Virus record (IMG/VR): IMGVR_UViG_3300024518_005074
Location: 1-23,613 of that record
DNA: 23,613 nucleotides
Strand: one strand, 5' to 3'
Source: a virus
The notes beneath the pieces were generated by a model, which had not been told where the DNA came from, did not search any database, and saw only the letters and a program-made list of their open reading frames with translations. Position numbers and translations under genes: made by a program. Of the stretch, positions 1,189 through 20,660 are shown in pieces. Within the stretch, counting starts at the first letter, position 1. Each line of letters starts with the position of its first letter.

Positions 1189-2709
1189 CTAAACTCCTAC
1201 CCTATTGTGCCAAGTCCAGTCGTCACTGGTTTCTGGCTGAAGAGATTTAAGAATGTTCTCAACCAAAAGCGGGTTATTATCACGGGGTTGGGTGGGTGCG
1301 CTTTGCAAACGAGTTAGTTGAACCGCGTACGCCAACGCATCAATTACATCGTCGTGTGCGCCGTAGGGAAATTCCTCCAGTTCCTTGAACACCACATCTT
1401 GATTTGACCTGATCCACAAAGCCCCTTTGGCAAAATACTCCTTGAGGCTGAAAATTCGAGCAAGCCCAATCTTCTTCTTATTGCCAGGCTTTAGCTCCTC
1501 GATACTTAGATAATAGTCCTCTCGCCGCATCGCTTCCCGAATAGGGTACATCAGCACTTTCTGAAAGAGAACACTCTCTAACCCCATTCGCTGAGGTTTC
1601 CAAGCCCGATGGACGGCAAAAATGTTTTCAATGAGCATGTCCACAGACCAATGACCCCTCTGCACATCCACACAAAAGATATCATTCAGGTGATTCCGCC
1701 CAACGGTCACAATCGCACTATAGTCGGCCTTGAGCCCTTCACCGAGAGCAGGGTCGATAGCCGTGAAATAAGTCCAAGCACCCTCCGGCAACGCATCGAA
1801 CTTCCGAATGATAGATATGTCAAAGGCATTCACATCGTCGAAGGTTGGGTTGTTCATGTACTGCGTAGCGAAGATCTTTTTTCCCTGAGTATTTTGGATT
1901 TCTTTCAAAGTTTGCAGAGTGAAGCGCTCCGGCCAAATGGGCTTGCTATCCGAATTCAACTGCCCGTCATGAGTCGCCTGCTGGCGGAAAGTGCGGTATT
2001 GCGGCTCCCTTTCCAAGATGAAGGAAATGAGGTCGCTGAATGCCCACCGCGTACCAACCACAACCTTCTGCAGGGAAGCTGGACTAACACTCAAAGAGAT
2101 GGCATATTGATGCCACTCAATGATTTTAATCATTTGCTCAGGGCTTTCCAAATGCTCGGCGGCTACAAGGTCATCTTCAATCTGGAGGTCATAGTGCCGA
2201 CTGACAGCAGTACCGCCTACCCCAATACACTCAAAAGTTGACTCCGGCCAAACCTTTGACCGCACAACTTCTAGTTCTGTAGTTGTCCACTTTGTCTTGC
2301 CCTTTTCAGGGATGATCTCAGGAAACAGCCACCGAAAAATGGCGTTCTCTTCAAAATGACCCGAAATTGTCCGTAGAAAGTGAGAAGCATTTGTAGCTGT
2401 CGCATTGCTGATAAGGACTCGGAGATTGGGGTCATGAAGGACTCGCCAAATTGGATAACCTATTGTGCAAATACTACTCTTTAGGTGGCCTCGCGGTAGC
2501 TCGACCATTTTGTCCCATTTCGCAGGCTTGCCACTTTCATTAAGGGCGTGACTGTCACTCTCCAAGAACTGACACAGCGGGAGGTGCAGGTGGGGCACAA
2601 GGTCTTTATACCCTAAAACCGCCTTACAAAGGAAGAAGAGGGAGTCGAGGGACTTCTGCCGCATCTCCAACCGTAAGTCATCTTGGTTTTCTAGCTGAAC
2701 AGGCTCCAC
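1189..2709 (-). CDS. terL: Terminase large subunit (ATPase and nuclease)
   Basis: This is the DNA-packaging motor, which pumps the genome into the prohead and cuts the concatemer. In this 506-residue protein the N-terminal ATPase shows a Walker A-like ELPRGHLKSS (residues 70-79), a Walker B-like LQIEDD (175-180) and a coupling motif VVGTRW (217-222). The C-terminal RNase H-like nuclease shows its acidic residues in FTAIDPALG (D319), GLES (E378) and HDDVIDALAYA (D453, D454, D457). The deviant RGHxKS P-loop resembles the terminase group of T7-like and N4-like phages. Translation starts at GTG, whose G is shared with the TAG stop of the small subunit, with AGGAG just upstream. The motif set is complete and the gene appears intact. 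Confidence 0.95.
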   Translation of the reverse strand: MEPVQLENQDDLRLEMRQKSLDSLFFLCKAVLGYKDLVPHLHLPLCQFLESDSHALNESGKPAKWDKMVELPRGHLKSSICTIGYPIWRVLHDPNLRVLISNATATNASHFLRTISGHFEENAIFRWLFPEIIPEKGKTKWTTTELEVVRSKVWPESTFECIGVGGTAVSRHYDLQIEDDLVAAEHLESPEQMIKIIEWHQYAISLSVSPASLQKVVVGTRWAFSDLISFILEREPQYRTFRQQATHDGQLNSDSKPIWPERFTLQTLKEIQNTQGKKIFATQYMNNPTFDDVNAFDISIIRKFDALPEGAWTYFTAIDPALGEGLKADYSAIVTVGRNHLNDIFCVDVQRGHWSVDMLIENIFAVHRAWKPQRMGLESVLFQKVLMYPIREAMRREDYYLSIEELKPGNKKKIGLARIFSLKEYFAKGALWIRSNQDVVFKELEEFPYGAHDDVIDALAYAVQLTRLQSAPTQPRDNNPLLVENILKSLQPETSDDWTWHNRVGV

Positions 2710-3305
2710 TACTCCTGGCCTCCAGCAAGAACTTTCGGGCTTGAGAAATCTTCAACTTCCTGAGCCACCTCGCGCAGTTCCCGAAAGGCTGTCTCAATGC
2801 ACTCCCCCTGTTCCGCGTCAATGTGGATTACAGTTTTATCAACCTGCATATGTTGGCGGACAGCGTGGCCAGCCCGGTCAACCATTGCCAAGCTCATTTT
2901 ACCCACCAAATCCGCATCCTCACTATTGTAGAGAATGTTGGCAATACGGTCAAGACCTTGAGAAGCGAGTTGGGCGATACGGTCTTTTTGACTGAGTGCA
3001 TCCTCCCTTAACTCCGCCTGCATTTTATGGAAAGCGTTTATAAACTGTTCAGTTTGTACTACAGTGTAGACAGTGGGTGGAGCAAGATCAAGGAGTTTAG
3101 CGGCCGAAAGCCGACTCTCCCCCTGGAGTAATTTTATAGCAATTAGCTCATCACGCGGAAGTTCAAAGCCGTAACTTGAAGCCCAAGTACCGTCCTCGCC
3201 CAGAACAGCAGAGGGCTTTTGGGGTGGCTTGACCGCTACCTTTTGAGTCATTTGTTGCAGTAGGGCGACCAACTGGGCGGAACTTTTTGAGGCTTGTTTC
3301 TGCAT
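2709..3305 (-). CDS. terS: Terminase small subunit, probable
   Basis: This gene lies directly upstream of the large subunit and overlaps its GTG start by one base. The middle of the protein has a helix-turn-helix-like segment (SRLSAAKLLDLAPPTVYTVV), expected for the small subunit that recognises the packaging site, followed by a long helical oligomerisation-like region. The C-terminal third is acidic. I use the ATG at 3305, giving about 198 residues; a TTG at 3329 would add eight. Neither has a clear Shine-Dalgarno sequence, so the start is uncertain. Assignment rests on position, size and HTH pattern; I see no family-specific signature. Confidence 0.75.
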   Translation of the reverse strand: MQKQASKSSAQLVALLQQMTQKVAVKPPQKPSAVLGEDGTWASSYGFELPRDELIAIKLLQGESRLSAAKLLDLAPPTVYTVVQTEQFINAFHKMQAELREDALSQKDRIAQLASQGLDRIANILYNSEDADLVGKMSLAMVDRAGHAVRQHMQVDKTVIHIDAEQGECIETAFRELREVAQEVEDFSSPKVLAGGQE

Positions 3306-3679
3306 AGTGTAAGGATAACACGTTTGCAATCTTAAAGGAAAGTATTTTCTGGCGGCTCCCTTACCCAGAAACCCAGAAGGTGTAGGGAAGTCACTTGCAC
3401 AACTTTAAACAAGTGACTCCCTACAGTCTAACGACCCTCACTTTAAAAAACTTTATCCAAATTTCAGGGGCAGGGTTTCCCTCGTGGGGGGCGATCAAGG
3501 GGGACTACTATAGTGCGTAAAAGACCGATTTTTTACGTAGATTTGAGTAAGATTTGTGTTAATTTATCCCGCTTCATGTCATGAACCGCGCGCACGTGGT
3601 GATATCACCGCGAGGAAAGCGATTCGATGAAGCGTTATGTGACAAGCAACTTACTTACTTGAACTTACGGAGATTGAAT
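3306..3679. promoter_or_regulatory. Divergent intergenic control region between late and early modules
   Basis: These 374 bases separate the leftward terminase operon from the rightward early genes, so promoters in both directions are expected, but no sequence here matches sigma-70 consensus well. It contains a 16-bp hairpin (3381-3425), a 7-bp CGTAAAA/TTTTACG hairpin (3516-3537), runs of G at 3486-3503, and the perfect 12-bp palindrome GGTGATATCACC (3598-3609), a good operator candidate. A packaging (pac or cos) site is also plausible here because the small terminase gene is adjacent. An in-frame ATG at 3581 for the next gene has no ribosome binding site, so I count that stretch as leader. 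Confidence 0.5.
3381..3425. repeat. 16-bp inverted repeat (hairpin family copy D)
   Basis: The arms 3381-3397 and 3410-3425 pair over 16 bp with one bulged A (3388) around a 12-nt loop. The right arm CAAGTGACTCCCTACA resembles the right arms of the inverted repeats at 7752-7791 and 20619-20660 (shared pattern CAA-R-Y-GACTCC). It lies between the divergent early and late operons. It has no T-tract on either side, so a simple intrinsic terminator is not obvious. A protein-binding site, mRNA end protection or a packaging site are alternatives. Confidence 0.75.
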
Positions 3680-3859: not shown

Positions 3860-4058
3860 GTGCTATGTCCGTCCCAAAGTATCCCATAGGGACATCCCGA
3901 AGTAGCAGCGCGTCGTTAACGATGTACACTCAACGCGTGGTAAAGCCTCTTAGGATTTACGCCTCTTGCGTCATGAATGCAACCTGTTCATAACGCAAAG
4001 CGTAACGACGATGAATCTTGTTCCTGATAGAGACAAGTGAGCGCGTCGATAGAACAAA
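3860..4058. other. Intergenic region with short hairpins, no gene seen
   Basis: There is no frame with a ribosome binding site in these 199 bases. I see several short self-complementary stretches: ATGTCC/GGACAT around 3865-3894, the palindrome TCGTTAACGA near 3913, ACGC/GCGT near 3995 and CTTGT/ACAAG near 4018-4037. The sequence GCGTTATG at about 3637 also has a complementary CATAACGC near 3990. That could be a degraded version of the gene-enclosing inverted repeats found next to it, but the match is too weak to call. Confidence 0.4.
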
Positions 4059-4520
4059 GCTTGACATTCTCGTAACGCGTCCCATTCATTCATAGGAGAC
4101 GCATTATGAGCCAATATAAGATTGTAAACTTAGACGTAAACCTTGACGATGAGGACGGTCTTGAATTTGTTATTCACAATGGATGTTTAATGCAATTTGA
4201 CGATCACAGCAACTTAATGTACGCCGTGATCGGCAGTGACGGACGCATTATTCAAGAAAGGAACGAACTTGAGACCCTAGAGCGGGAGGCATACATCGCG
4301 AGGATGGACGAGGGAGAACCAACCCCATATCGAGGAGACACTAAATGGGAATACGTTGAGGAACTTGACGAAGAGAGCATCCAGGTACTTGAAAAAGCAT
4401 TCCCGAAAGAGCAAAAGGCGTTCAACAATTTCCGTAAAATGAACGTTCCCTACACGTGGAGTGGCTACTGCCCCGACAAATAAACTTTAACACTTGGGGC
4501 GCGTTCCGAGAATGTTGAGC
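4059..4520 (+). repeat. Gene-enclosing inverted repeat 1 (26-nt arms 4059-4084 and 4495-4520)
   Basis: The left arm (GCTTGACATTCTCG...) lies 21 nt upstream of the ATG at 4106, and the right arm begins 12 nt after that gene's stop. Of 26 positions, 22 are Watson-Crick pairs, 3 are G-U pairs in the sense RNA and 1 is a mismatch. The gene is therefore contained exactly in the loop of a potential long-range RNA stem. The right arm ends one base before the left arm of the next such unit. Confidence 0.85.
4106..4483 (+). CDS. Acidic hypothetical early protein (125 aa)
   Basis: ATG 4106 has AGGAG at 4094-4098. The 125-residue product is strongly acidic (NLDVNLDDEDGLEF, EYVEELDEESIQ) and mixes short strands (EFVIHNGCLMQF, LMYAVIGSDGRII) with a helical C-terminal half. 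No catalytic motif is visible and the family is unknown to me. Acidic early phage proteins can be DNA mimics or inhibitors of host enzymes, but that is only a possibility suggested by charge and position. The gene is enclosed by the 26-nt inverted repeat at 4059-4084 and 4495-4520, so its mRNA ends could pair. Confidence 0.75.
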   Translation: MSQYKIVNLDVNLDDEDGLEFVIHNGCLMQFDDHSNLMYAVIGSDGRIIQERNELETLEREAYIARMDEGEPTPYRGDTKWEYVEELDEESIQVLEKAFPKEQKAFNNFRKMNVPYTWSGYCPDK

Positions 4521-4521
4521 A

Positions 4522-4860
4522 GATACTCGAATAGTGTCTTGTGCGCCTTTCAGCGCGTAGGAGACACATTATGGCGAAAATGACCGTAGGAAGACTAAGA
4601 AAAGCCCTTCAAGGGCTTCACAAAGATACAACGATCTTAATCGACACGATTGATCTTGCGGCGGATATCGTCGCACAGCCAGGAACATACGAGGAAGGTC
4701 TAGGGGATTACCTCTGGCATGAATTTGAGATAGGCGATAAAGTTACCGGTAACTTAGGCCGAGGCAGTAACGATGGAAAGTGGTGGATAACTTTGAAAGT
4801 CCACAAAAGAATCATCGGCGGATAACCTTACAAGGGCGCACAATACGCTATTCGAGTGTC
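4522..4860 (+). repeat. Gene-enclosing inverted repeat 2 (26-nt arms 4522-4547 and 4835-4860)
   Basis: The left arm (GATACTCGAATAG...) ends 23 nt before the ATG at 4571, and the right arm begins 9 nt after that gene's stop. There are 23 Watson-Crick pairs, 2 G-U pairs in the sense RNA and 1 mismatch. The arms are unrelated in sequence to repeats 1 and 3, so this is not one dispersed repeat element. Only a single base (4521) separates it from repeat 1. Confidence 0.88.
4571..4825 (+). CDS. Small hypothetical protein with TVGRLRKAL N-terminus (84 aa)
   Basis: ATG 4571 is chosen because AGGAG (4559-4563) precedes it with normal spacing; the frame extends upstream to 4541 but without a ribosome binding site. 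The N-terminus (MTVGRLRKALQGLHKDTTILID) resembles a recurrent small phage and bacterial pattern in which TVGEL-I-x-L-x-x-L is followed by a D-x-x-V/I-L strand; the rest is beta-rich and ends KWWITLKVHKRIIGG. The biochemical role of such proteins is not known to me. The gene is enclosed by the inverted repeat at 4522-4547 and 4835-4860. Confidence 0.75.
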   Translation: MAKMTVGRLRKALQGLHKDTTILIDTIDLAADIVAQPGTYEEGLGDYLWHEFEIGDKVTGNLGRGSNDGKWWITLKVHKRIIGG

Positions 4861-4865
4861 ACATC

Positions 4866-5550
4866 AGGCTAAACAGTCAAGGACTCTCACGCCCACGAAG
4901 TGAAACCACTTTGTGAACCCTTGAGGAGATTTGACTATGGAAAAGACAGTTCAGTACCAGGAAACAAAAACACCCGTGAGCGCTGATGCAAAAGCAGTCC
5001 TTGAACAACTACTTGGGATGATTAAAGATAATCCAGAGCTAGCGAAAGAGGCCGCGAAGGCATTACGACCACAAACAGCCGCCCAACTCGCACGCCAAGA
5101 GGCATTAAAGGCGATTGAGAGTTTCAGAAGTATCCCGATTACGGAAGTCATGGATAACGGTTATGAAACCTATGGCGACCTGATTGAGGACTTTCAAACG
5201 CTTGAGCGCGAATTGAAAAGCCATGGAAAAGGCGGCGGAACGAAAGTACGGAAAGCAAAGAAAAAATGGTGCTTCGTGAATGGTGACCCGTTCAGCTTCG
5301 AGATCTCCCTTTCAACCCTTGAAGGGGACGATGCGAAATTGAGCGTTCATCCGGACGTCGAATGGATTGAAACCTTCCTGGACTACGGCTACACACAAGG
5401 GCAGGTGGCTCATGTGCGCAAAGCCCGTCCGTACCGGAAAGACAGGGGCTTTTTGACTCAAGAAGTCCTTGATGAATTGAACAACAGAGCAACTAAGGCA
5501 CTTGCCTAAGCCCATTTATAACCTAGTGAGAGTCCTTGACTGTATGGCCT
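4866..5550 (+). repeat. Gene-enclosing inverted repeat 3 (25-nt arms 4866-4890 and 5526-5550)
   Basis: The arms share an uninterrupted 18-bp complementary core (ACAGTCAAGGACTCTCAC in the left arm). Overall there are 23 Watson-Crick pairs, 1 G-U pair in the sense RNA and 1 mismatch. The left arm ends 46 nt before the ATG at 4937, and the right arm begins 16 nt after the stop at 5509. It starts 5 nt after repeat 2 ends, making three back-to-back units. Confidence 0.88.
4937..5509 (+). CDS. Hypothetical early protein (190 aa)
   Basis: The ATG at 4937 has GAGGAG at 4923-4928 with 8-nt spacing; a TTG two codons earlier would be too close to that site. The N-terminal half is helical and charged with a possible coiled coil (residues about 15-100). 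A basic linker (KGGGTKVRKAKKKW) then leads into a compact C-terminal domain that may bind nucleic acid (FSFEISLSTLEGDD, WIETFLDYGYTQGQ). There are no cysteine clusters or nucleotide-binding loops. It is the third and largest gene held inside an inverted repeat. Function unknown. Confidence 0.75.
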   Translation: MEKTVQYQETKTPVSADAKAVLEQLLGMIKDNPELAKEAAKALRPQTAAQLARQEALKAIESFRSIPITEVMDNGYETYGDLIEDFQTLERELKSHGKGGGTKVRKAKKKWCFVNGDPFSFEISLSTLEGDDAKLSVHPDVEWIETFLDYGYTQGQVAHVRKARPYRKDRGFLTQEVLDELNNRATKALA

Positions 5551-5895
5551 AAGTGATTGAACCCCATTGTTGGAGGCTTTGGGGCTTGTGGAAAGTTCCA
5601 CCAAATTCCACCAAATTCTACGTCAATGTGGAACTTTTTTTTCAATGTTTTCAATGACTTAACCTATAAATTCTACAATTCCACGCATATACATATAATA
5701 TAATAATAATATACGGTCTTAGGCACTCTTTACCCTCTCTTTTACAATCTCTCTTTCTCTTTACAAGCGCGTGGAATTGCGGAATTGTATAACTTCAACG
5801 TTTTCAAACACTTAGCGTGGAATTGAATTCCACAAGTTCCACATCCCGAACATCTTTAATCAACAGCTACACCAGCCGGAAAGGAGACTCAGCCT
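5551..5895. other. AT-rich intergenic region with nine GTGGAA/TTCCAC hexamers; candidate replication origin or partition site
   Basis: Exact GTGGAA or TTCCAC hexamers start at 5588, 5596, 5606, 5628, 5679, 5771, 5817, 5828 and 5837. Two pairs form near-perfect palindromes: GTGGAA-AG-TTCCAC (5588-5601) and GTGGAATT-G-AATTCCAC (5817-5833). Between them lies an AT-only-like tract (5685-5713, TATAATATAATAATAATATA) and a tandem TTTTCAATG repeat (5639-5656). Iterons flanking an easily melted tract are the usual layout of a phage or plasmid origin. An initiator has not been identified and no canonical DnaA box was seen, so a partition site or multi-site operator remains possible. Confidence 0.55.
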
Positions 5896-6227: not shown

Positions 6228-6256
6228 TTGACAAATAGAGAGGATTCTGATAAAAT
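6228..6256 (+). promoter_or_regulatory. Consensus sigma-70 promoter with extended -10
   Basis: TTGACA (6228-6233), an exact 17-bp spacer ending in TGA, then TAAAAT (6251-6256). This is the first of three rightward promoters with the same build. Its spacer and start region carry an inverted repeat, AATAGAG (6234-6240) and CTCTATT (6259-6265), which would place an operator over the -10 box. It should drive the gene at 6326 and those following it. Confidence 0.85.
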
Positions 6257-7252: not shown

Positions 7253-7495
7253 ATGAGAAAATTTATACACAAAAAAATAGAACAACCCTCGGACATTACA
7301 AAAAGAACTGTTACCGCATATATAAAAGGAAGGCGCGGGTTCAATCATTCTGCGAACGAATATTATAATCAGGTCAATGGAATGCTAGACAACCCGAACC
7401 AGACCATTATGAGGCAAATTGATAGGGCTATCAATGGAATATGTGGAAGCGACACAAGCGTTCGCTCTTTCAGAGAGTATTATTACAATATATAA
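7253..7495 (+). CDS. Small basic hypothetical protein (80 aa)
   Basis: ATG 7253 follows AAAGGGAG (7237-7244) at the end of the second structured leader. The 80-residue product is basic (MRKFIHKKIEQPSDITKRT, VTAYIKGRRGFNH) and rich in asparagine and tyrosine, ending SVRSFREYYYNI. It has a single cysteine and no recognised motif. A nucleic-acid-binding role would fit the charge, but nothing specific supports it. Confidence 0.7.
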   Translation: MRKFIHKKIEQPSDITKRTVTAYIKGRRGFNHSANEYYNQVNGMLDNPNQTIMRQIDRAINGICGSDTSVRSFREYYYNI

Positions 7496-7515
7496 GATTG
7501 ATGGAGACACGGTCA

Positions 7516-7860
7516 ATGCCAAAGCGAATCAAGTGCAAAAGATGCCAAGGGCTCTTTGTGGGCGAAAGAGTCCTAACACCCCAAGGTCAAAAGTTGGAGA
7601 TTTTGCGGTGTTTGAACTGCGGCCACATCATTGACGAGCAGATTCTTCACAACCTCTATCACCTTCCAAAGGAGTACAAAGAGGTTGTAACGGTGGAGCG
7701 TTACGGCAAATGGAACCCTAGACCTCGAAGAAAGAAACAGTTTTCCGAGTTTGAGGAGTCGTTTGTTCATATTTGTACAAATGACTCCTCAGAGGGTGTT
7801 TGTACCATTTGCCACGAGCTTCAAGCAAATGTGTCTATGATAACTTCTACGAAAATATGA
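7516..7860 (+). CDS. Zinc-ribbon protein (114 aa)
   Basis: I chose the ATG at 7516 because GGAG (7503-7506) precedes it with 9-nt spacing; upstream in-frame ATGs overlap the previous gene. The N-terminus has a zinc ribbon with C-x2-C knuckles CKRC and CLNCG about 25 residues apart. The middle is basic (WNPRPRRKKQF). A second cluster, HIC-x8-C-x2-CH, lies near the C-terminus. Two zinc sites around a basic linker suggest DNA or RNA binding, for example an early transcription factor. The last part of the coding sequence overlaps an inverted repeat (7752-7791) that recurs elsewhere. Confidence 0.7.
   Translation: MPKRIKCKRCQGLFVGERVLTPQGQKLEILRCLNCGHIIDEQILHNLYHLPKEYKEVVTVERYGKWNPRPRRKKQFSEFEESFVHICTNDSSEGVCTICHELQANVSMITSTKI
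7752..7791. repeat. 15-bp inverted repeat (hairpin family copy A), inside coding sequence
   Basis: GAGGAGTCGTTTGT (7753-7766) and ACAAATGACTCCTC (7777-7790) pair with one G-U position, and a flanking T-A adds a fifteenth pair. The central 18-mer TTGTTCATATTTGTACAA (7763-7780) matches 13 invariant positions shared with the sites at 13114-13131 and 20631-20648. It lies at the 3' end of the zinc-ribbon gene, about 90 nt before the next promoter, so it may mark the end of the transcription unit begun at 6228. Confidence 0.8.
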
Positions 7861-13167: not shown

Positions 13168-14454
13168 ATGAGTACGACTCAAGTCAAACAAATAGAGCGG
13201 ACGGTTATTAAACCACATCCCTTTAATGCAACCCTTTACCAAGACAGTGAACGGAATGTCGAGTTCCAAGGCCTCGTCGCCAGCATTAAGACGCATGGGT
13301 TTAAAGAGCCCCTCGTCATCACCCCTGAAAATGTCTTGCTTTCCGGTCATCGACGTTTAGCCGCCGCAGAAGCCCTTGGAATCGAAAAAGTACCTTGTTT
13401 AACCGAGGAGACCGACAATGAAGAGCTTTCCATCGTTGAACACAATCGTTACCGAAAGAAAACGTATACGGAACTGATGCGCGAAGCTCAACATCTTACC
13501 GCCTCTGAAAAAGAAAAGGTTGCGGCCATGCGGTACGCTGACCCTTCCGCCGAAGATGTCGGAGATCGAAAAAAAGGCCAGCGAACCCAAGCCATCGTCG
13601 CAAAAGCGTTAGGGATTGGCAGTGGAACCAATCTGCACAAGCTCCAGAAGATTTTCGAGGCATCCAAAAGCGATCCAAAAATTGCCGCTCAAATGGATAA
13701 AATTGACTCTGGGGAAAAGTCCATAAATGCCGTGTTTAAATCCTTAAACGTAACTGCTGTGAGAAAAGAGGACTTTGGGCTCGACCTCCAACTCTTCTCT
13801 AGCTGGCACTTTCCAGTCTGCGATGTCACTCTGGGTCAAGATCACCCTGGCCGCATTCCTGGCCAAATCGTGGAGAACCTCATTTACTACTATACAAACC
13901 CAGGCAATCTTGTTGTTGACCCTTTCGGGGGAGGCGGTGTGACCGTTGACGCTTCCAAGAACCTTCGTCGTCCCTGTTATGTGACCGACATTGCCCCAGT
14001 TCGTTCTGATATCCACCCTTGGAACATCTCAGAAGGGTATCCCCCAGAAGCCCAAGATGCTCAATTTGTCCTCCTTGACCCTCCCTACTGGAATATGTTA
14101 GAGAAGGAGTATAAAGCCCTACATGCAGAGTCAAGTGCCACCCTCTCCCTCGATGACTTTCGCGAGTGGCTTCTTCAGCTCCTTCACCACACCCACGACA
14201 CTTTACAGGATGGCGGTGTTTGTGCCCTCATAATCATGCCCCAGAGCTTTAAACTTCCCGAAGGTATCCCCTTCATTGATTGGCCTTTTGAGGTCAGGAG
14301 TATGATGGATGAAGTAGGGTTTGTCCCGCTTATGCGAATCAGTCACCGCTGGCCGACCTCCATCTACAACGCTCCGCAGGTTGAACGGGCGAAAGATACA
14401 AAGACCTTTCTAATCACGCACGGGGATATTGTCATTGGAAAGAAGGTGATGTAG
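13168..14454 (+). CDS. ParB-like N-terminal domain fused to DNA methyltransferase (428 aa)
   Basis: ATG 13168 follows a perfect AAGGAGGT (13157-13164). Residues 1-100 form a ParB/sulfiredoxin-fold domain with LLSGHRRLAAAEALGIEKVP (57-76), the GxRR signature of ParB. Residues 100-195 look like the helical KorB-type HTH domain. Residues 205-428 are a methyltransferase: HPGRIPGQIVENLI as a motif X-like stretch, DPFGGGGVT (251-259) as the S-adenosylmethionine loop, and LLDPPYWN (302-309) as the catalytic motif IV, pointing to N6-adenine or N4-cytosine methylation. The motif order X-I-IV differs from the common beta class. Such fusions occur in phages and probably protect phage DNA from restriction; site specificity cannot be read here. 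Confidence 0.9.
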   Translation: MSTTQVKQIERTVIKPHPFNATLYQDSERNVEFQGLVASIKTHGFKEPLVITPENVLLSGHRRLAAAEALGIEKVPCLTEETDNEELSIVEHNRYRKKTYTELMREAQHLTASEKEKVAAMRYADPSAEDVGDRKKGQRTQAIVAKALGIGSGTNLHKLQKIFEASKSDPKIAAQMDKIDSGEKSINAVFKSLNVTAVRKEDFGLDLQLFSSWHFPVCDVTLGQDHPGRIPGQIVENLIYYYTNPGNLVVDPFGGGGVTVDASKNLRRPCYVTDIAPVRSDIHPWNISEGYPPEAQDAQFVLLDPPYWNMLEKEYKALHAESSATLSLDDFREWLLQLLHHTHDTLQDGGVCALIIMPQSFKLPEGIPFIDWPFEVRSMMDEVGFVPLMRISHRWPTSIYNAPQVERAKDTKTFLITHGDIVIGKKVM

Positions 14455-14481: not shown

Positions 14482-15426
14482 ATGAGACCAATGCTTGCAG
14501 CAAAAGTAGATTTAAAGAAGGTAAATTACCCTTGCTACACCTCCCCGAAACTTGATGGGGTTCGGGCTCTCGTGATTGATGGCGTAGTGTACAGCCGCTC
14601 AATGAAAAGAATACCCAACAGGCACGTTCAGAGTCTCGCAGAAGAATGGCCTTCCGGCCTTGATGGGGAATTGATTATTGGAGATCCAACTGCCCCTGAT
14701 TGTTACAGAAAGACTGTCTCAGGGGTAATGAGACATGGAGGAGAACCTTCTGTAACATTCTGGGTCTTTGATCGGCATGATATGCTAACTGTAAAATTCG
14801 ACCTGCGTTATGCCCTTTTGTGTAATTCAATGGATCTAGGTTGCCCAGGGGTAACAATTCTCTCCCAAACACTCTGTGAGAATGAGGTTGACTTAACCTC
14901 TACAGAAGTTCGCTGGGTTCAAATGGGGTATGAGGGTTTAATCATTCGCGACCCTAACGGCCTTTATAAGTATGGGCGATCGACGGTCAACGAAGGCGGA
15001 ATGCTTAAAATGAAACGCTTTCTTGACGGAGAAGCCCATCTTCTTGGCATGGAAGAACTCATGCACAATGGAAATGAGTCTTTTATAAACGAGTTGGGTC
15101 AGACCGCCCACACCCACCACCAAGAAAACAAAGTGGGTATGGGCTCCATGGGCGCACTCTTAGTGAAGGATCTCGAAACGGGGGTTGAGTTTAAAATTGG
15201 AACGGGGTTTAGTCAAGTTCAACGAGACGCATTTTGGTCAATGGATTTGTCAGTCGAAACCCCCTTAATAATCAAGTATCAATATTTTCCCCTTGGGTCA
15301 AAGGACAAGCCACGGCATCCTTCTTACCTAGGGATCAGGGATGAAAAGGATATGGACTCTAAAGTGTTCAACGAACGCACTCTGGTTCAGAAAGGAAATG
15401 ATGCTAAAGAAGCCAAAAACCTGTAA
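14482..15426 (+). CDS. ATP-dependent DNA ligase (314 aa)
   Basis: ATG 14482 follows AAAGGAG. All nucleotidyltransferase motifs are present: motif I SPKLDGVRA with the AMP-accepting lysine K23, DGELI (61-65), FWVFD (93-97), EGLIIR (151-156) and LKMKRF (175-180, K176 and K178). A short OB-fold domain follows (GSMGALLVKDLETGVEFKIG). Its length is close to that of small phage T7-type ligases with no extra DNA-binding domain. It seals nicks during replication and recombination. The 3' end overlaps the polymerase start by 26 nt, so the two are probably co-translated. Confidence 0.93.
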   Translation: MRPMLAAKVDLKKVNYPCYTSPKLDGVRALVIDGVVYSRSMKRIPNRHVQSLAEEWPSGLDGELIIGDPTAPDCYRKTVSGVMRHGGEPSVTFWVFDRHDMLTVKFDLRYALLCNSMDLGCPGVTILSQTLCENEVDLTSTEVRWVQMGYEGLIIRDPNGLYKYGRSTVNEGGMLKMKRFLDGEAHLLGMEELMHNGNESFINELGQTAHTHHQENKVGMGSMGALLVKDLETGVEFKIGTGFSQVQRDAFWSMDLSVETPLIIKYQYFPLGSKDKPRHPSYLGIRDEKDMDSKVFNERTLVQKGNDAKEAKNL

Positions 15427-17746
15427 CGGTTGCCCCATGGAGCATGTTGGTAAAGGGTACGTCCACGCATCTGGGCCAAAAGATGCCTTGATTCAGTTGG
15501 TCGGAGACTGCCCAACAACTAACGAGGTAAAAATTGGTAAAGGGTTTCAAGAAGGTACAGGACGTATTCTTAACTCCCTTTTAAAGAGTGCGGGTATTGA
15601 CCGCACAGCTTGCCGTATTGATTACGCAATGCGGTGCCAACCCCCAAAAGGAAAAATAGACAAAAGTTTTGACCCTATAATCTGCGCTCAACGTCACCTT
15701 TTTCCAGAGTTAAAGACCGTCAAAGCCCACATTATTGTAGCACTTGGGGCAACTGCACTGGATATCATTTGTGGACTGGATAAGATCAGTAAACGGCGAG
15801 GCTCCCTTTATAAGACTCCTTATGGAAAGGTTCTCCCGACCCTCCACCCCTCGACCATGATGCGAAATCAAGTTATGTGGTTCATTGTAATTGCTGATTT
15901 ACGCAAAGCGAAGTCTGAAAGTCTTTTCCCAGAGTTGATCCCCCCTGCGTACAAATTCAACAAGTTTCCCACCTTGCAGCAAGTTAAAGAATTTAGCCCT
16001 ACCACCCCTCTAAGCGTAGACATTGAGACGAGTTGGGCTAAGTACTGGGAAAATTCCCTAATTTGTATTGGCTTTTCTGATGGCGTTGACACGCTTTGCA
16101 TACCCTGGCTTTCCCAGCACGGAGTACCCTATTGGAAACCAGAGGAGCAGGAACAGGTGGTTAGAGAGATTCAACGACTGCTTAGCCGCCCAGGCATCTA
16201 TCAAAATGGATTTTTTGATGTTCAGGTACTGACCGCCCTAGGCTTTGAGGTGAAGAACTTTTGGTTTGACACCATGCTTGCGCACCATCTAATCTACGCA
16301 GAGCTCCCGCATGACCTTGGCTTTCTATGTAGTGTTCACACAAATGTACCTTACTACAAGGATGAAAGTAAGAGCGATGCAGGTGCCCTTGCCCTCACCG
16401 ACGAAGTATTCAGGGGGTATAATTGCAAAGACGTTTATAGTACACATTTAGCTAGTCAAGACCTTACAAGAGACCTTCGGAGTACAGGGAATTATGACCA
16501 CTTCCGTGCCGTCACAATGAAGCTACCCCCGATCCTGCTTGATATGCAAAAGCGGGGTATTGGGGTGGACACAGCGACCCTTCGTGACGCAATCATTGAG
16601 TACACAATGCAAATTTCCCAACTGAATACAGACTTGGAGGAGGCTGGTGTGCCTAAGGGGGACAAGGCCTTAAAAGAATACCTATTTGTCAAGTTAAAAC
16701 TTCCGGTTGTGAAACGCAGTCGAAAGACCAAAGCCCCCTCACTCGACGCAGACACGTTTCTTAAACTTCATAAGAAGATTCTGCTCGAACAGGAGCAGTT
16801 AAGCCCCCAGAGTTCGCGTTATCAAATATTGGTTGAGGGTAGTAAAGCCCTACGCCTCATTTCCACCAAAAAGCAGAAGCAGAAAACTCTCAGTACGTAC
16901 CTTAGGGGACTTCCCATTGGCCCTGACGGAAGGGTTCACTGCTCGTGGCTCCAGCATGGAACTAAAAATCAACGCCTATCTAGCCGTGACCCTAATTTGC
17001 AAAATGTGCCTGCTGGAATTGCTCGGCGGATCTACTGTGCAAAACCTGGCCACAAACTATACCTCTTTGACTACAGCCAGATAGAGCTAAGGATCATTGC
17101 TTATGAAGCAGAAGATCTCCCTCTAATTCAAACATTCGAGGAGGGCAAAGACCCCCATGATAAAAACACGCGAGACTTTTTTGGCATTAAAGATGGGGAA
17201 ACGTATACAGAAAGGCAGAGAAGTTTTGCCAAGTCCTTCGTCTATTGTCTGAATTATGGCGGTGATGTGACCGCTGTGCTCATGGCAAACCCAGGGTTCA
17301 TCTCGTTTAAATACGCGAAGGCAGCCCAAGCTCGTTACTATAAAGAACGACCGGCTATAGCCCTCTACCGTGAACGGATTGAAAAAGAAGTTAGGTCGTC
17401 AAGGACTGTTGTTAACCCTTTTGGATTGAAGCGTATCTTTTTCGGGGCTTTAAGTGACAATATTAAAAGTGCCTACAACTACCCAATTCAAAGTGGGGCG
17501 GCACATGTTATTAACACCGCCTGTATTCGGCTTAGCCGTCAAGGGTTGACAACAGGGCTCATTCTCCAAATTCACGATGCGCTAGGTTTTGAGCTTCCCA
17601 ACCACCCAACCACTCCCCAACGACTTAAAGACATCCGTAAAGTAATGGAAATGCCCGTTACTATACGGGGCAGAAAGGTTGACTTACCCGTTGACCTAAA
17701 GTATGGAAAGAATTGGGATGCTTTAGATAAGTGGAAGTGGTCATGA
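15401..17746 (+). CDS. Family A DNA polymerase with 3'-5' exonuclease and N-terminal UDG-like [4Fe-4S] domain (781 aa)
   Basis: I use ATG 15401, with AAGGA about five bases before it. Residues 1-165 resemble family 4/5 uracil-DNA glycosylases: cysteines C8, C11, C79 and C95 spaced as an iron-sulfur site, VGDCP (34-38), ALGATA (114-119) and LHPS (148-151). The exonuclease follows: DIE (D207, E209), NGFFD (269-273) and YNCKD (340-344). The polymerase has RLSSRDPNLQNVP (525-537), motif A DYSQIELR (557-564), motif B R607-x3-K611 with Y615 and Y619, and motif C HDALGFE (725-731). Y615 sits where E. coli Pol I has Phe762. It is the phage replicase. Oddities are the UDG fusion and HDA in place of the usual HDE. 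Confidence 0.93.
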   Translation: MLKKPKTCNGCPMEHVGKGYVHASGPKDALIQLVGDCPTTNEVKIGKGFQEGTGRILNSLLKSAGIDRTACRIDYAMRCQPPKGKIDKSFDPIICAQRHLFPELKTVKAHIIVALGATALDIICGLDKISKRRGSLYKTPYGKVLPTLHPSTMMRNQVMWFIVIADLRKAKSESLFPELIPPAYKFNKFPTLQQVKEFSPTTPLSVDIETSWAKYWENSLICIGFSDGVDTLCIPWLSQHGVPYWKPEEQEQVVREIQRLLSRPGIYQNGFFDVQVLTALGFEVKNFWFDTMLAHHLIYAELPHDLGFLCSVHTNVPYYKDESKSDAGALALTDEVFRGYNCKDVYSTHLASQDLTRDLRSTGNYDHFRAVTMKLPPILLDMQKRGIGVDTATLRDAIIEYTMQISQLNTDLEEAGVPKGDKALKEYLFVKLKLPVVKRSRKTKAPSLDADTFLKLHKKILLEQEQLSPQSSRYQILVEGSKALRLISTKKQKQKTLSTYLRGLPIGPDGRVHCSWLQHGTKNQRLSSRDPNLQNVPAGIARRIYCAKPGHKLYLFDYSQIELRIIAYEAEDLPLIQTFEEGKDPHDKNTRDFFGIKDGETYTERQRSFAKSFVYCLNYGGDVTAVLMANPGFISFKYAKAAQARYYKERPAIALYRERIEKEVRSSRTVVNPFGLKRIFFGALSDNIKSAYNYPIQSGAAHVINTACIRLSRQGLTTGLILQIHDALGFELPNHPTTPQRLKDIRKVMEMPVTIRGRKVDLPVDLKYGKNWDALDKWKWS

Positions 17747-20618: not shown

Positions 20619-20660
20619 GATAGGAGTCGTTTGTTAAATATTGTACAAACGACTCCTATC
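20619..20660. terminator. Perfect 16-bp inverted repeat between convergent genes (hairpin family copy C)
   Basis: GATAGGAGTCGTTTGT (20619-20634) and ACAAACGACTCCTATC (20645-20660) pair without mismatch around a 10-nt loop. It begins 11 nt after the stop of the rightward operon and overlaps the stop codon of the leftward virion gene, the expected place for a bidirectional terminator. No U-tract follows in either direction, so termination may need a protein or be by another route. The core 20631-20648 matches sites A and B. Confidence 0.8.

Follow-up and report, generated by a model that had tools for sequence, protein, structure and literature searches.

Three tandem early genes of an uncultured phage enclosed by candidate leader-trailer RNA helices

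The window, meaning the whole stretch of DNA analyzed here, is the complete IMG/VR contig IMGVR_UViG_3300024518_005074 (23,613 bases), which comes from an uncultured phage. Besides the terminase large subunit gene, the contig carries an ATP-dependent ligase gene, a DUF3987 primase/helicase gene, an ORF in which a ParB-like N-terminal domain is fused to a DNA methyltransferase domain (13168 to 14454), and a family A DNA polymerase ORF (15341 to 17746) in which a uracil-DNA-glycosylase-like domain and a 3'-5' exonuclease are joined to the polymerase. The nearest named relative was MW202554 (37% for the terminase and 32% for the polymerase), and this relationship, together with the gene layout, points to a tailed phage of the podovirus type. 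The early region begins divergently from the terminase and contains three consecutive units, in each of which a left (leader) arm and a right (trailer) arm enclose one ORF. The arms were located by helix scans and by folding of the sense transcript.

1189 to 2709, minus strand: terminase large subunit
4059 to 4084, plus strand: left (leader) arm of unit 1
4106 to 4483, plus strand: ORF 1, 125 amino acids, no known family, with an AGGAG ribosome site just upstream
4495 to 4520, plus strand: right (trailer) arm of unit 1
4522 to 4550, plus strand: left (leader) arm of unit 2
4571 to 4825, plus strand: ORF 2, 84 amino acids, no known family
4832 to 4860, plus strand: right (trailer) arm of unit 2
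4866 to 4890, plus strand: left (leader) arm of unit 3
4937 to 5509, plus strand: ORF 3, 190 amino acids, no known family
5526 to 5550, plus strand: right (trailer) arm of unit 3
5560 to 5860, no strand assigned: origin-like region directly after unit 3, an AT-rich stretch surrounded by TTCCAC (five copies) and GTGGAA (four copies) hexamers

Each arm pair brackets one complete gene together with its ribosome site, and the right arms begin near the position where the footprint of a ribosome at the stop codon would end. The left arms of units 1, 2, and 3 ended 21, 20, and 46 nt before the start codon, the right arms began 11, 6 (9 with a shorter unit 2 arm), and 16 nt past the stop codon, and consecutive units were separated by only 1 and 5 nt. 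The three arm pairs had no sequence in common, and the arms were not self-complementary. Pair 1 (26 nt) contained a single T.C mismatch and 3 G-U pairs. Pair 2 (4522-4547/4835-4860) could be extended to 29 nt (4522-4550/4832-4860), at which length it contained a single C.T mismatch and 3 G-U pairs, and pair 3 (25 nt) contained a single A.A mismatch and 1 G-U pair. None of the pairs included an A-C combination, with the small caveat that pair 3 gained two pairs, one of them A-C, in a strand-neutral scan. The initial annotation had drawn the arms of the three back-to-back units correctly to the base, and its description of one true mismatch per pair, with all other differences giving G-U and never A-C in the sense RNA, holds for the arms that it had drawn.

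The complementarity between the two ends of each gene exceeded chance expectation. In a G-U-aware helix scan of the entire window, the three pairs occupied ranks 1 to 3 with scores of 59.5, 54.5, and 54.5, compared with 42.5 for the next helix and 42.5 for the top score among 20 dinucleotide shuffles of the window. Within the local region, the next real helix scored 31.5 and the best of 150 region shuffles scored 48.5, corresponding to Gumbel p values of about 1e-4 to 1e-5 per arm pair. All three stems paired in the predicted fold of the 4040 to 5560 sense transcript, with a probability of about 1 at nearly every position. The calculated duplex energies of pairs 1 to 3 were -41.6, -44.7, and -42.7 kcal/mol in the sense orientation versus -33.5, -34.8, and -39.4 kcal/mol in the antisense orientation.

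Unit 1 is preceded by a 59-codon ORF and then by approximately 200 nt of noncoding sequence (3860 to 4058) without a clear gene, in which a strong hairpin is predicted at about 3957 to 4005; neither this segment nor the window as a whole gave an Rfam match. We found no good promoter directly upstream of unit 1 and no intrinsic terminator (a GC-rich hairpin followed by a T run) on the plus strand between 3300 and 8000. Other elements were observed farther away. In the region divergent from the terminase, hairpin arms CGCTTCAT/ATGAAGCG surround the palindrome GGTGATATCACC at 3571 to 3635, which is possibly an operator or an early leader structure. Past the origin-like region, the next operon starts with a near-consensus extended -10 promoter, TTGACA-17-TAAAAT (11 of 12), at 6228 to 6256. 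Two further hairpins (7752 to 7791 and 20619 to 20660) have a common stem, GGAGTCGTTTGT/ACAAACGACTCC, with one base different in the first; the first lies inside or near the end of the ORF at 7441 to 7860, the second lies between convergent genes, and together they possibly represent a shared terminator or protein site.

The codon-position G+C of ORFs 1 to 3 matched that of the known genes of the phage, and the ORFs had AGGAG/GAGG ribosome sites. ORF 2 gave a weak, sub-threshold match of 24 residues to DUF6225. No convincing homologue of the three proteins was found in the phage and viral contig sets or in 33 whole related contigs, and we therefore searched for the arrangement instead of the genes. 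Alignment of the terminase brought in 77 new loci, a first match led to two further units, and a census of approximately 2 Mb (the window and all loci) was made for helices whose arms bracket one ORF. Six of the 18 helices that scored at least 54 in the first census bracketed an ORF. Nine top units, chosen by score and by eye, were well formed, and they came from seven phages: three from the window and one each from the loci L065, L081, L084, L085, L093, and L094. The arrangement thus recurs in six other phages. In all nine units the right arm started 6 to 22 nt past the stop codon and the left arm ended 15 to 46 nt ahead of the start codon, and in the four relatives with the terminase on the same locus (L065, L081, L084, and L085) the unit was divergent from it, as in the window. 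The L085 unit (3176 to 3418, minus strand) encloses a hydrophobic peptide of 49 amino acids with one likely membrane span, and its right arm runs into the TTGACA-17-TATATT promoter of the next genes.

The relatives closest in their terminase (whole or nearly whole contigs of L014, L016, L019, L022, and others) contained no unit, and the feature is therefore sporadic. The proteins encoded inside the L065, L081, L093, and L094 units are homologous (28 to 42% identity to the L094 protein), whereas their arm sequences are largely unrelated and still pair. Comparable arms were missing around homologues of this protein in L005, L063, L066, L068, and L069. L081 contains a further copy of the gene, for which only a weak, differently placed helix was seen. 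Thus, the arms are not needed for the protein as such and, judged from these comparisons, are a gain-and-loss feature that is not obligatory for the gene. Structure models of the enclosed proteins had low confidence (pLDDT of 61.6 and 42.9), and two genome-contig scans for this protein family in host genomes gave no relative. Among relatives found through the polymerase (L004 to L010), there was no comparable tandem, and their strong inverted repeats were mostly short-loop hairpins or repeats. Gene-bracketing candidates from four loci were set aside: in L008 and L009 each arm folded into a hairpin of its own, and the L068 and L069 candidates lay in repetitive sequence. Long inverted repeats that are not of the one-gene type were seen in the early regions of L005 (35772-35849/35941-36018) and L010 (257-286/2228-2257, with several genes enclosed, and 43071-43096/43392-43417).

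L093 and L094 were close enough for a base-by-base alignment of the arms, and positions 2 to 27 were compared. From L093 to L094, there were three double compensatory changes (C-G to T-A twice and T-A to C-G once) and six one-sided changes via G-U that kept the pairing, while one pair was lost and one was gained. As the window proteins have no homologues, this covariation evidence comes from the arms of the relatives and not from those of the window. Additionally, we repeated the census with a strand-neutral score that treats G-U and A-C alike, to avoid favoring the sense strand. Detected in this manner, the nine units had a G-U to A-C ratio of 24:7 in the gene sense (p=0.003), with 2 to 3 A-C pairs in the L081 unit. 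All well-formed matches of any score together gave a ratio of 33:28, which is no bias; the bias was confined to high-scoring units, as expected if the low-scoring matches are due to chance. Distant relatives share the arrangement although their arm sequences differ, so selection appears to act on the pairing as such. The compensated changes and the G-U excess mark the arms as RNA structure and not as a DNA repeat. The initial annotation had proposed selection on sense-RNA pairing of the ends of each gene. Retained complementarity despite arm turnover and the 24:7 ratio support this proposal, and the homologues without arms speak against it: genes kept with complementarity lost, which had been named as the contrary outcome, was seen in part, in five of the relatives (L005, L063, L066, L068, and L069) and in the second L081 copy.

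The boxA sequence of rRNA leaders (consensus TG[CT]TCTTT[GA]A[AC]A) is an rRNA antitermination signal that is otherwise typical of rRNA operons and is also found in phage nut sites and CRISPR arrays. A perfect boxA was present 2, 13, and 12 nt ahead of the left arm in L084, L093, and L094, respectively, and L081 had a near-perfect match (12.5 of 14) further upstream. No boxA was found in the window or near the L065 and L085 units. Only six perfect copies occurred in 2.01 Mb on both strands, three of them at left arms; a single shuffle of the same 2.01 Mb gave three perfect matches. Because L093 and L094 are homologous, boxA at the left arm represents at least two independent cases. Both of these loci also had near-consensus TTGACA-17-TACAAT promoters 38 to 41 nt before the left arm. 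Elsewhere, boxA-like copies were observed in SPO1 (L140, 2501 to 2528), where TGTTCTTTGACAACTGAATA forms a boxA-like leader ahead of gene 27.9 with no gene-enclosing stem, and in Javan451 (L139, 2501 to 2525), where the copy looks like a promoter, also with no gene-enclosing stem. The Javan451 copy warns that TTTGACA can be a -35 box; L093 has no -10 box at the right distance.

The explanation that we favor, with confidence and doubt in about equal measure, is that each arm pair is a leader-trailer helix on phage mRNA that separates and protects single cistrons, probably via RNase III. In the sense transcript, a stem of 25 to 29 bp would join the untranslated sequences on the two sides of a single cistron. 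As RNA polymerase leaves the gene, the trailer arm would pair with the waiting leader arm, and in some relatives a boxA-NusB/S10 complex probably holds this leader in the manner of rRNA operons. The duplex formed in this way would be long enough for RNase III, cleavage could split the three-gene transcript into single-gene mRNAs, and the residual end-stems may shield both ends of the released messages. Capture of the left arm in the stem would also keep it off the ribosome site. That the helices form in the cell, that Nus factors assist them, that RNase III cuts them, and that single-gene messages are thereby protected is inferred.

The main rival to processing, which we regard as rather unlikely, is a toehold-type cis-acting translational switch, and the two could act together. 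In such a switch, the 3' half of the left arm would mask the start codon and ribosome site as long as the right arm is missing from the transcript; the right arm, once made, would take the free 5' end of the left arm, displace the hairpin, and open the ribosome site, and translation would be limited to messages that extend beyond the stop codon. All three window leaders, when folded without the right arm, had a hairpin over the ribosome site, while the first 9 to 12 nt of the arm stayed largely unpaired.

4069 to 4110, plus strand: predicted alternative hairpin of unit 1, formed without the right arm between the 3' portion of the left arm and the segment holding the ribosome site and start codon (p of 0.005 to 0.065, depending on the measure)
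4534 to 4568, plus strand: predicted alternative hairpin of unit 2 over the ribosome site (p of about 0.02 to 0.04)
4875 to 4936, plus strand: predicted alternative hairpin of unit 3 over the ribosome site (p of 0.04 to 0.18)

Leader folding energies compared with arm shuffles gave p values of 0.008, 0.020, and 0.167 for units 1 to 3, and the real right arm was predicted to leave a larger fraction of the ribosome site unpaired than a shuffled one (0.43 versus 0.36, 0.50 versus 0.16, and 0.62 versus 0.34). Unit by unit, the leader hairpins were at the border of significance. Over all nine units, the right arm opened the ribosome site in the expected direction in seven (p of about 0.07 against shuffled right arms and 0.03 against truncated RNA), while the change was in the opposite direction in L081 and L093. 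However, in the units of the six relatives pairing between the left arm and the ribosome site did not exceed that of shuffled arms (single-unit p values of 0.18 to 0.86), the Fisher combination over nine units (0.034) was carried by the window, and the arms are far longer than strand displacement needs. The switch model looked strong on the three window genes but was much weakened by the six units of the relatives, and we keep it as a rival.

The remaining alternatives are less probable still. A stem that serves only as a shield, tying the mRNA ends together against 5'-end-dependent decay and 3' exonucleases and having no role in cleavage or translation, would agree with the high stability (about -42 kcal/mol), the closed ends, and the position of the arms near the edge of the footprint of a ribosome at the stop codon; however, the window units are internal to one presumed transcript and lie back to back, so there would be no free ends unless the RNA was first cut between them, and we consider this explanation improbable. 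It is more improbable that the transcript through the units serves the adjoining replication origin, as a processed primer or by origin activation, with the stems shaping the RNA. In the window, L065, L081, L093, and L094 the units do read towards a directly adjoining origin-like repeat region, which in the four relatives is likewise AT-rich with short repeats; in relatives, the comparable region after the unit has TCAATAGCTTACG and TTCTACA repeats. However, the stems enclose whole ORFs with their ribosome sites and not RNA abutting the origin, and a link between the units and replication, although possible, is not general because no AT-rich region follows within 600 nt of the units in L084 and L085. 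The least credible of the alternatives places the arms at the DNA level, where they would be terminal inverted repeats bounding small mobile cassettes, parts of invertible segments, or sites for proteins. The arm length is typical of transposon ends and the units are modular and sporadic, but the sense G-U bias and the compensatory changes argue against DNA repeats, as do arms that share no sequence within the window and respect the spacing to ribosome site and stop codon. Inspection of the flanks of all nine units also found no target-site duplications, and the modular DNA cassettes suggested in the initial annotation thus found no support.

Several known systems resemble the units in part. 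In phage T7, RNase III sites between the early genes are local hairpins, and cleavage there cuts the polycistronic early transcript into single mRNAs. The units described here would likewise split an early polycistronic phage transcript, but unlike at the T7 sites each stem spans a whole gene. Long-distance interactions between the 5' and 3' ends are also known from the hok and aapA type I toxin mRNAs, in which transient leader hairpins precede an inactive message that acts with an antisense RNA (PMC6733600). The end-to-end pairing of a short mRNA and the possible local hairpins at the ribosome site before the 3' end is made are similar in the two cases, whereas the predicted effect on the ribosome site is opposite and no antisense partner was found for the phage units: on the minus strand there were only weak promoter matches (9 of 12) at 4113 to 4149, and the total number of sites was not above that in shuffles. 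On reading the window ORFs (84 to 190 amino acids), we saw no hydrophobic span, unlike in type I toxin peptides. The icaR message of Staphylococcus aureus likewise forms a double strand between its own 5' and 3' untranslated regions, with involvement of RNase III, and a 7-nt motif of the 3' untranslated region pairs with the Shine-Dalgarno sequence and blocks translation (PMC3868564). In contrast, 25 to 29 bp pair upstream of the ribosome site in the phage units, where left arms end 20 to 46 nt before the start codon, and this pairing would leave the ribosome site freer. A search of the open literature, outside which most subscription papers lie, gave nothing comparable to mRNA leader-trailer helices or gene-enclosing stems in phages.

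The leader-trailer helices of rRNA precursors are the closest in mechanism. In Escherichia coli, the pre-16S helix needs more than 17 bp and the pre-23S helix has 27 bp, and the proposed task of boxA is to keep the leader at the RNA exit while the trailer is still to come (PMC10250234). As in the 16S and 23S precursors, distant complementary flanks of 25 to 30 bp, above the minimum of about 17 bp, enclose a product RNA, and in the window several enclosed units lie in one presumed transcript, as 16S and 23S do; in three relatives boxA stands just upstream of the leader arm, as in an rRNA operon. However, the units are not members of this group: what they enclose is an mRNA that carries a ribosome site, boxA is absent from the window, and RNase III cleavage is a presumed step here. 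Since the window has neither boxA nor a good promoter at unit 1, the parallel with the rRNA operon is complete in three relatives only. We tentatively suggest, as a possibility on the doubtful side, that the units form a class of phage mRNAs that follow the layout of an rRNA operon, in the order promoter, boxA, leader arm, ribosome site, gene, and trailer arm, in which the host rRNA transcription complex (NusB, S10, and other Nus factors) would fold the helix cotranscriptionally and RNase III would release single-gene messages; the window would then be a boxA-less tandem of three. For bacterial mRNAs, long-range pairing between the two ends has been described in a few individual cases and is mostly regarded as repressive. 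The arrangement described here recurs, independently of sequence, among a group of uncultured phages; it has support from covariation, and some of the phages add boxA. If the proposed reading is true, the leader-trailer design is not restricted to rRNA, it offers a compact way of turning an operon into separately protected messages, and these phages would provide a genetic route for testing how the Nus complex helps distant RNA arms to meet.
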